Shown piece by piece: positions 60,551-63,189 of a stretch of DNA of 64,000 bases (within the stretch, counting starts at the first letter, position 1; each line of letters opens with the position of its first letter). Position numbers and translations under genes: made by a program. The DNA is taken from NCBI GenBank assembly GCA_012960155.1, contig DUBU01000039.1:247281-311280 (forward strand). The letters are read 5' to 3'. The notes under the pieces are model-generated. The model searched no databases. It had not been told where the DNA came from and was given only the letters and a program-made list of their open reading frames with translations. This DNA is from Micavibrio sp. (GTDB lineage: Bacteria > Pseudomonadota > Alphaproteobacteria > Micavibrionales > Micavibrionaceae).

Positions 60551-60862
60551 TTACCCCTTTAGCTCCGAAATATCCTCTACAGCAATCGACCCACGATTAC
60601 GGAAGAACACAACCAGAATTGCCAAACCAATAGCCGCCTCAGCAGCAGCAACAGTTAGAATGAACATGGCAAAAACCTGCCCTGTCATATCATGTAGAAA
60701 TGACGAGAATGCTACAAAGTTGATGTTCACAGACAAAAGCATCAATTCAATCGACATCAAAATAATGATTACGTTCTTACGGTTCAGGAAAATACCGAAC
60801 ACACCGATCGTAAACAACAATCCGGCCAATACCAGATAGTGTGACAAACCGACTTCTAACAT
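60551..60862 (-). CDS. nuoK: NADH-quinone oxidoreductase subunit K
   Basis: The 103-aa three-helix subunit has both conserved Glu residues ([11 protein letters not shown] and [11 protein letters not shown]). Its ATG shares one base with the nuoJ stop (TAATG). Confidence 0.97.
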
Positions 60863-61473
60863 TACGCCCCCGATCCTGAAGAAACCTTGCGCACTTCCAT
60901 AGCGTCCTCACGCTTACGCGCAAACTGCTCGGCAACACGCTGCTTGTATACACCTGAACGTTGGCGGTGCGTCAGAACAATCGCGCCGATCATTGCCACT
61001 AGCAGGATCAAGCCCGCAAGCTGGAACGGCAGGAAGTACTTAGTGTAAACAAGCTGACCCAATGCCTCTGTATTCGTAAGCTCACTATCTGCTGCAATCG
61101 GCGCAGATACCTGGCCCATTGCTTCAGGGGCAAATTGCCACGCACCAAACAATGTAAAAAATTCGAGAAGTAGAACAGCGCCAATAACAAGTCCCATCGG
61201 CACATACTGCATCGCGCCCTTACGAAGATCCGAAAAGCTGATATCCAGCATCATGACAACGAACAAGAACAGAACGGCAACAGCGCCGACATAAACAATC
61301 ACCAAAATCATAGCAATGAACTCGGCGCCCAATAGTACAAAAAGCCCGGCTGCGTTAAAGAAGCCGAGGATCAAAAAAAGTACGGAATGCACCGGGTTAC
61401 GCGCCGTGATAACCATCAAGGCACTTAAAACAAGTATGGATGCAAACAAATAAAAGGCGAGCGAAGTGATCAT
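60862..61473 (-). CDS. nuoJ: NADH-quinone oxidoreductase subunit J
   Basis: The 203-aa five-helix subunit has the pi-bulge helix region [20 protein letters not shown]. It starts the downstream part of the nuo cluster, cut off from nuoI by a 735-bp insertion with a plus-strand gene, so it needs a promoter in 61474-61640. A weak TTGAAG-N17-TAGAAA is visible there on the minus strand. Confidence 0.95.
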
Positions 61474-61640
61474 TGCCTGAGACTCAGTAGTTATAACTAA
61501 GACTTTTCTAGTATTTTAGACGCCCCACTTCAAGCGCCCTTTACACAAAATCCACTTTAAATGTTGATTTTTTCCTGTAATCGGGAAAAGATGACTCTGT
61601 CTTGAATATCAATTCATTAAATCAATAAAGGATAAATTAA

Positions 61641-62135
61641 GTGCGTGGGTTATTTACACTGCTGGCAGCAGCAATTTTTGTTTTTTCCGCATCACCAGCA
61701 AAAGCAGGTGAAGGCGATCTTTTAAGTCTCGGCGTTGGCTACTACGATATCAATGATAACGAAGATGCCGCCGACTTCCGTTTGGAATACCGTTGGGACA
61801 ATCAACTGATTTGGGTTATTGAACCTTGGGTAGGTCTGGAAGCTACGTCAGACGGCGCCTTTTACGGTGTTGGTGGCTTATTAGCAGACATTCAGATCGG
61901 CGATCACTTCCTGATCACACCAAGCTTTGGAGCGGGTCTATACACTGACGGTGACGGTAAAGACTTAGGCAACACTGTTGAGTTCCGCTCACAGCTGGAA
62001 CTGGGTTACTTGTTTGACAATAACCACCGTATCGGTATCGCAGGTGGCCACATTTCAAACGCTGGCCTAGGCGACCGTAATCCGGGAACAGAAATCCTGA
62101 ACGTTTATTACCACATCCCTGTTGGCAGCTGGTAA
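61641..62135 (+). CDS. PagL-like lipid A 3-O-deacylase
   Basis: The 164-aa product has a signal peptide (1-22) and an eight-strand barrel-like pattern of alternating residues, ending GSW. The catalytic triad spacing of PagL is reproduced exactly: His137, Ser139 and Glu151 in HISNAGLGDRNPGTE (His to Glu 14 residues). PagL removes the 3-O acyl chain of lipid A in the outer membrane. Starts at GTG with AAAGGA upstream. It lies on the plus strand inside the minus-strand nuo cluster. Confidence 0.85.
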   Translation: MRGLFTLLAAAIFVFSASPAKAGEGDLLSLGVGYYDINDNEDAADFRLEYRWDNQLIWVIEPWVGLEATSDGAFYGVGGLLADIQIGDHFLITPSFGAGLYTDGDGKDLGNTVEFRSQLELGYLFDNNHRIGIAGGHISNAGLGDRNPGTEILNVYYHIPVGSW

Positions 62136-62158
62136 GACACAACATAAATACAAAAAAC

Positions 62159-62187
62159 AAAGCCTCCAAACGGAGGCTTTTTTTATT
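62159..62187. terminator. Bidirectional intrinsic terminator between pagL-like gene and nuoI
   Basis: AAAGCCTCC - AAAC - GGAGGCTTT: 9-bp perfect stem. On the plus strand it is followed by TTTTATT; on the minus strand by GTTTTTTG. It can end both the pagL-like transcript and the nuoH-nuoI transcript. Confidence 0.9.
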
Positions 62188-62208
62188 GTAAAAAATCACT
62201 AAACCGAG

Positions 62209-62688
62209 TTAGCGATATGGCGCTTCTGCTGCAAGATTAGCAGCAATTTGGGCTTCCCAACGATCGCCATTAGCCAAAAGCTTATCTTTGTTATAGTAAA
62301 GCTCTTCACGTGTCTCTGTAGCAAACTCGAAATTAGGCCCCTCGACAATTGCATCAACAGGACAAGCTTCCGCGCATAGCCCGCAGTAAATACATTTCGT
62401 CATGTCGATGTCATAACGAGATGTACGGCGGCTACCATCTTCACGAGGCTCTGCTTCAATTGTAATTGCCAAAGCAGGACAAATAGCTTCACAGAGTTTA
62501 CAAGCAATACAACGTTCTTCCCCGTTCGGGTAACGGCGCAAGGCGTGCTCACCGCGAAAACGAGGACTAATTGGACCCTTCTCGTAAGGATAGTTAATGG
62601 TCACCTTAGGCTTAAACATATACTTGAACGTCAGAGCCATGCCCTTGACGATTTCGGGTAACAAAAAACTACGCGCTAAACTATCCAT
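62209..62688 (-). CDS. nuoI: NADH-quinone oxidoreductase subunit I
   Basis: The 159-aa ferredoxin-like subunit carries two [4Fe-4S] motifs, [12 protein letters not shown] and [12 protein letters not shown], for the N6a and N6b clusters. It follows an unknown 165-aa gene by 3 bp and is followed by a bidirectional terminator. Confidence 0.98.
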
Positions 62689-62691
62689 GAT

Positions 62692-63189
62692 CTAATCCAG
62701 ACTAGGTGGTGTTGGCTTATCAAACTTATAATGCAGGGCTGTGTGAGCCTCAGGACGACGCTGCCCTAAACGGGTAACACGGCGCTCGAGTTTATAGCTA
62801 TCATCAATAAATTCAATACCGACATGGTAATGATTTTCAAAGCTATACCCTTGCAAGACACTATCTCTAAAGAAGGATGCAACTTCACTGTCTTGGTGCA
62901 TCGGGAGAATTATTCGATTAACGCTATGATCACGCGCGGCCAAGGTCATGGCCGCCATAATAGAATGTGCATTCTTAGTAACTTTCTGATCACGATGCGG
63001 GGATGAAAGCTGGCGACAAATACGCATGGCGTATTCATTGAACATTGATGCAAATTGAGGCGACTCCATAGCACCCTCGCCTGCACGACTAAAGATCTCT
63101 GAAAGTCTCATCAGATCTAGCGTGCGTGTCCCCTCGTTGTCCTCGGAGATTAGTAGAAATTTTTCGTCTATAGCTTCACTCATTCCCAT
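62692..63189 (-). CDS. Unknown protein encoded between nuoH and nuoI, 165 aa
   Basis: Not recognised. Soluble, no signal peptide or membrane segment, no cysteine pair typical of an iron-sulfur site (a single Cys near residue 58). The centre is helical (FSRAGEGAMESP to MAAMTLAARDHS) and the end is His/Arg-rich (FENHYHVGIEF, RRVTRLGQRRPE). It starts 6 bp after nuoH and ends 3 bp before nuoI, so it is firmly part of the nuo operon. Alternative ATG two codons inside. A role in complex I assembly is only suggested by position. Confidence 0.8.
   Translation of the reverse strand: MGMSEAIDEKFLLISEDNEGTRTLDLMRLSEIFSRAGEGAMESPQFASMFNEYAMRICRQLSSPHRDQKVTKNAHSIMAAMTLAARDHSVNRIILPMHQDSEVASFFRDSVLQGYSFENHYHVGIEFIDDSYKLERRVTRLGQRRPEAHTALHYKFDKPTPPSLD

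Follow-up and report, generated by a model that had tools for sequence, protein, structure and literature searches.

Accounts of the nuo operon usually treat it as a single co-transcribed unit, and its I/J boundary has all peripheral-arm subunits together with NuoA and NuoH on one side and the membrane-arm subunits NuoJ–N on the other. Micavibrio, in which the locus described here is found, is a predator bacterium. The lipid A deacylase PagL is already known, as are antiparallel genes inside operons and same-strand inserts between nuoI and nuoJ in other Alphaproteobacteria. It has been reported that the men genes of S. aureus, menE-menC-MW1733-ytkD-MW1731, form a noncontiguous operon with overlapping transcripts (PMC7154746). 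The main text of the paper on the Micavibrio ARL-13 genome and its RNA-seq (PMC3189940) makes no mention of lipid A, deacylase or NADH, and a text search of PubMed Central returned no paper linking PagL to Micavibrio relatives.

The present locus lies in a window of 64,000 nucleotides, the whole stretch of DNA that was analysed, from a Micavibrio sp. assembly of 2.58 Mb in 39 contigs. The last gene of the upstream half of the operon, nuoI, occupies positions 62209–62688 on the minus strand (NCBIfam NF004539, 8.5e-94); the first gene of the downstream half (J–N), nuoJ, is found at 60862–61473 on the same strand (NCBIfam NF005164, 4.4e-84; Pfam PF00499) and is directly followed by nuoK at 60551–60862, also on the minus strand (Pfam PF00420, 8.7e-32). 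The identities of NuoI and NuoJ rest on NCBIfam equivalogs. Between them, pagL stands antiparallel on the plus strand, so that coordinates and profiles agree with an earlier note on this DNA, which had described a plus-strand gene inserted at this point; an opposite-strand gene within an operon is also one feature of a noncontiguous operon. The spacer between the divergent starts of pagL and nuoJ measures 167 bp here, with a median of 208 bp. An assembly artefact was considered and is ruled out by dozens of independent assemblies, including the closed single-contig genomes G046, G047 and G055. The neighbouring nuoH–nuoI junction, another that is normally close (median gap 45 bp in 123 genomes), contains in this genome a same-strand ORF of 165 aa at window positions 62692–63189 (minus strand), for which there was no match in Pfam, NCBIfam or PHROGs and whose position is not occupied by a homologue in the order's other genomes. 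Many relatives (e.g., L142, L144, L156 and L160) likewise have this junction widened, at most to about 1.3 kb, and for this reason the nuoH–nuoI–nuoJ stretch looks like an insertion hot spot.

The pagL-like gene (61641–62135, plus strand) encodes 164 aa from a GTG start, preceded by a Shine-Dalgarno-like AAAGGA at 61627–61632 on the same strand. Its product matches PagL in Pfam (PF09411, 1.1e-16, 61.6 bits against a curated cut-off of 23), and its sole sequence match in the PDB is PagL itself (2ERV, 8.5e-6), in an alignment that spans the H-x-S-(11)-E segment. The catalytic triad is H137, S139 and E151 in the C-terminal strands, and its spacing, which the earlier note had called exact, is indeed H-x-S-(11)-E and aligns with 2ERV. 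The AlphaFold model of the homologue (46 sequences) has a mean pLDDT of 91 and eight main strands, and 2ERV is ranked first by Foldseek (E 3e-7); a signal peptide at about residues 1–22 is predicted by inspection. Given the Pfam assignment, the 2ERV match, the fold of the model with its Foldseek result, the conserved triad and the presence in the genome of LpxC from the lipid A pathway, we regard the product, on grounds of homology, as a putative lipid A 3-O-deacylase, and in this the earlier reading of a PagL-like deacylase is supported. Lipid A in Micavibrio relatives is accordingly predicted to be 3-O-deacylated.

The comparison covered 142 genomes of a group referred to here as the Micavibrio order, with families f1, f5 and f7 affected and families f2 and f6 as sister or outgroup. 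A PagL match was obtained in 56 of the 142 genomes; one of these, in G122, is weak and lies elsewhere in the genome, and it was set aside, leaving 55 genomes with a clear PagL. Site and orientation are shared by 54 of the 55: pagL is antiparallel and adjoins nuoJ in 51 and adjoins nuoI on broken contigs in 3, while the remaining one could not be placed relative to nuo. The genomes with pagL at the nuo site span 30 genera, and in G062 PagL is at the same site within a junction gap of 790 bp. Outside the order, PagL was near nuoJ in none of about 109 PagL-bearing genomes from other alphaproteobacterial orders (29 loci; positions compared in 80 genomes). With one exception, linked nuoI–nuoJ junctions in f2 and f6 have gaps of 9–42 bp, and no PagL is present at the site; the exceptional f6 genome has a same-strand ORF between the two genes. 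The statement that nuoI and nuoJ are normally a few bases apart thus holds for f2 and f6 with this one exception, but not for Alphaproteobacteria at large, where 31 of 78 sampled junctions were shorter than 60 bp and 11 reached at least 300 bp without pagL.

Members of the order that lack pagL mostly retain an opened nuoI–nuoJ junction of 47–1500 bp, at times with other genes in it (e.g., L081, L082, L087, L107–L110, L116, L117, L152 and L153). By eye, these genes look like pseudouridine synthases and a PstB-like ATPase, and a shared family in six pagL-less genomes resembles CheZ. In two pagL-less genomes, nuoI and nuoJ are on one contig and far apart, 1.18 Mb in G021 (L053/L054) and 59 kb in G067 (L105/L106). 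Rhodobacterales-type genomes have a same-strand ORF of about 135–145 aa, apparently one family, between nuoI and nuoJ, seen at L296, L303, L306, L311, L312, L317, L323 and L324.

The history of the insertion can be followed on gene trees. The NuoHIJK tree separates f1, f5 and f7 from f2 and f6. PagL presence requires 19 changes on this tree, a count which alone cannot separate gain from loss; because site and orientation are shared, we interpret it as a single gain followed by about 18 losses. Most PagLs of other orders form a separate, well-supported clade in the PagL tree. When the PagLs of the order were constrained to one clade, the likelihood (AU p 0.77) was above that of the free search, and a single origin is therefore not rejected by these sequences. 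Distances in the PagL and nuo trees are correlated (Mantel r 0.53, p ≤ 0.001, none of 999 permutations being as high). By the trees and the shared position, this is an old insertion, largely vertically inherited and repeatedly lost.

Motifs in the spacer between pagL and nuoJ were derived from conserved k-mers and aligned spacers. The nuoJ-ward promoter-like motif is CTTGAAGTGGGGCGTCTAAAATACTAGAA in this genome (CTTGA-N18-CTAGAA; 61506–61534, minus strand), with its 5' end 61 bp upstream of the nuoJ start, and was identified by conservation. It was counted in a strict form, CTTG[CA]-N18-[ACT]TA[GA]AA, and in a relaxed form, CTTG[CA]-N18-NTA. The strict form is present in 77 of 103 f1/f5/f7 genomes (29 of 39 genera), all with a spacing of 18, and no other spacing between 8 and 28 occurred in more than 8 of the 103; the relaxed form lies 55–100 bp upstream of nuoJ in 92 of 103 against about 0.5 expected from mononucleotide shuffles, the genomes being related and hence not independent. 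Strict-form controls gave 1/122 upstream of nuoK, 0/129 upstream of nuoI and 4/121 upstream of nuoH, and the reverse strand of the same nuoJ-upstream regions has no motif at that spacing. The CTTGC form upstream of nuoJ is found in 0 of 20 f2/f6 genomes and in 1 of 74 other Alphaproteobacteria. Sorted by junction, the relaxed motif occurs in 78 of 82 gaps of at least 60 bp, in none of the four re-tightened junctions (below 60 bp), and in 14 of 17 loci whose nuoI is outside the fetched stretch, most of them at contig ends; since it accompanies wide gaps, is absent from re-tightened ones and is retained after pagL loss, the element goes with the opened junction and not with pagL itself.

The geometry of the element is CTTGCG, a 17-nt spacer and YTARAA, with a T-rich stretch further upstream; two conserved boxes at a fixed spacing near 17, oriented to nuoJ, are the features of a sigma-70-class promoter. 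Scoring of the pagL–nuoJ spacer with an E. coli-type sigma-70 model gave nothing above shuffles. Two simple origins of the motif were discarded: it is not a copy of a nuoA promoter, no such motif being found upstream of nuoA in genomes where nuoA is readable, and it is not a common promoter of these genomes, as its enrichment across whole genomes does not exceed that of a reversed control. On geometry and conservation, we infer that the element acts as a promoter, and the earlier expectation that nuoJ–N would need a new one gains support from this fixed, clade-wide arrangement. In the other direction, a pagL-ward promoter-like motif, TTGATTTTTTCCTGTAATCGGGAAAAGAT (TTGATT, 17-nt spacer, AAAGAT; 61564–61592, plus strand), is likewise marked by conservation: TTGATTT is present in 31 of 43 carrier spacers against 1.3 expected on the same shuffles of related genomes, often with a second, AT-rich hexamer 16–17 nt after it, where the spacing peaks. 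None of 29 PagL genes from other orders has the TTGATTTT motif upstream, so TTGATTT belongs to the pagL–nuo locus of this order.

At the other end of pagL, a bidirectional intrinsic terminator with a 9-bp stem and a T-run on both strands lies between the convergent stops of pagL and nuoI (62159–62180, both strands), well beyond chance and as the earlier note had proposed; Rfam matches there were below cut-off and treated as chance. Terminators were counted by a strict definition, after a permissive finder that fired equally inside the nuoJ coding sequence and at the junction had been dropped. Strict terminators occur after nuoI in 4 of 43 carriers and after pagL in 7 of 43, with 0.03 of each expected over all 43 junctions. 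In 12 of the 43 carriers, the stops of pagL and nuoI fall within 20 bp of one another, at distances of 0–16 bp, and none of these 12 has a strict terminator on either strand. The claim that transcription stops after nuoI is thus at best true of this genome with its strong terminator; with a nuoI-side terminator in 4 of 43 it is no rule for the clade, and nuoI transcripts may read through in most relatives.

These observations bear on several readings of the locus. That pagL was recently acquired horizontally, as an accessory gene of this genome, is hardly credible. PagL is absent from 86 of the 142 genomes, one congener among them, as a late arrival would have it; the site and orientation are nevertheless identical across the 30 genera, the PagL tree tracks the nuo tree, and pagL-less relatives mostly retain both the opened junction and the nuoJ motif. 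A recent insertion would be limited to one or few genomes with an empty site in close relatives, which is not the distribution found. Comparison of the junctions in related genomes therefore replaces the earlier description of a clean accessory insertion with a single ancient, clade-wide event. Similarly, a PagL-fold barrel devoid of deacylase activity is very unlikely: eight-stranded outer-membrane barrels are common, yet of 53 PagLs of the order all have the His and Ser of the triad, 49 the Glu and 52 the Asn adjoining the Ser. Instead of a core promoter, the nuoJ element could be a site bound by a regulator of complex I, or an element of the nuoJ leader, since it is neither enriched genome-wide nor seen before nuoA; its sigma-70-class geometry at 55–100 nt from the start codon and the lack of any Rfam family above cut-off at the element speak against this, and it is considered distinctly improbable.

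The alternative that deserves most attention is that nuoA–N is read as one long mRNA across pagL, with antisense overlap and mutual regulation of pagL and complex I, the nuoJ promoter being an internal booster. The anatomy of the 12 carriers with nearly touching stops and no strict terminator is excludon-like, and the arrangement has been retained in 30 genera. Against it stand the strong terminator between nuoI and pagL in this genome, the conserved promoter-like element of nuoJ, which is kept where pagL is gone, and the frequency of pagL loss, which speaks against a needed regulatory link; such a continuous transcript is accordingly thought unlikely, although not far-fetched. A broader form, in which pagL–nuo is an ancient clade-wide regulatory device whose overlapping convergent transcripts and back-to-back promoters couple the remodelling of lipid A in the outer membrane to the output of complex I, for instance as cells switch between a free-swimming and a prey-attached phase, is a speculative and rather improbable proposal.

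We consider it likely, instead, that an ancient pagL insertion split nuo into nuoA–I and nuoJ–N, with pagL expressed independently between them. According to this two-unit model, in the ancestor shared by f1, f5 and f7 pagL would have entered the nuoI–nuoJ junction in reverse, dividing the complex I operon into the units that now flank it. Two back-to-back promoters would operate in the divergent spacer, a TTGATTTT-type one for pagL and CTTGC-N18-NTA for nuoJ–N, the elements being recognised by conservation and their promoter function putative. In this genome, the bidirectional terminator would end both the pagL and the nuoA–I transcripts. PagL, by its fold an eight-stranded outer-membrane barrel, presumably removes the 3-linked acyl chain from the cell's own lipid A with its H-S-E triad. 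Once nuoJ–N had become autonomous, lineages would have been free to lose pagL or to gain other genes beside it, and in a few of them the nuo halves could move far apart; the pattern is observed, and autonomy is its presumed cause. It counts against this model that PagL is missing from more than half of the order's genomes, so that the split does not depend on pagL to persist.

In a whole bacterial clade, complex I thus appears to be produced from two transcription units that part at I/J. The steps can be placed in order on the tree, from tight outgroups through one insertion, gain of the promoter-like element and repeated loss of the insert, to the later moving apart of the halves and a small number of junctions that have become tight again and lack the element; because of this order, the clade may serve as a natural experiment on how a cut central operon survives and whether subunit stoichiometry needs one mRNA.

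Compared with known systems, the locus combines familiar parts in a different arrangement. Like the men operon of S. aureus (PMC7154746), it has one opposite-strand gene inside an operon of an electron-transport pathway, and the convergent stops are close in many carriers; unlike it, a conserved promoter-like element stands before the downstream half, and in this genome there is a terminator as well. The Rhodobacterales inserts open the same nuo junction with a lineage-specific gene, but their gene is compact and runs on the same strand, so that no split of the operon has to follow, and its protein is unrelated to PagL. The f2/f6 operons have the same gene order H-I-J-K, with a tight junction (one exception), no PagL at the site and no nuoJ motif. 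PagL of Pseudomonas aeruginosa (2ERV) shares the fold, the triad spacing, the C-terminal strand sequence and the signal peptide; identity over the fold alignment is about 21%, and here the gene sits within nuo and its activity and substrate position are putative. What is new here is a complex I operon split clade-wide by an antiparallel gene, together with a matching conserved promoter-like element.
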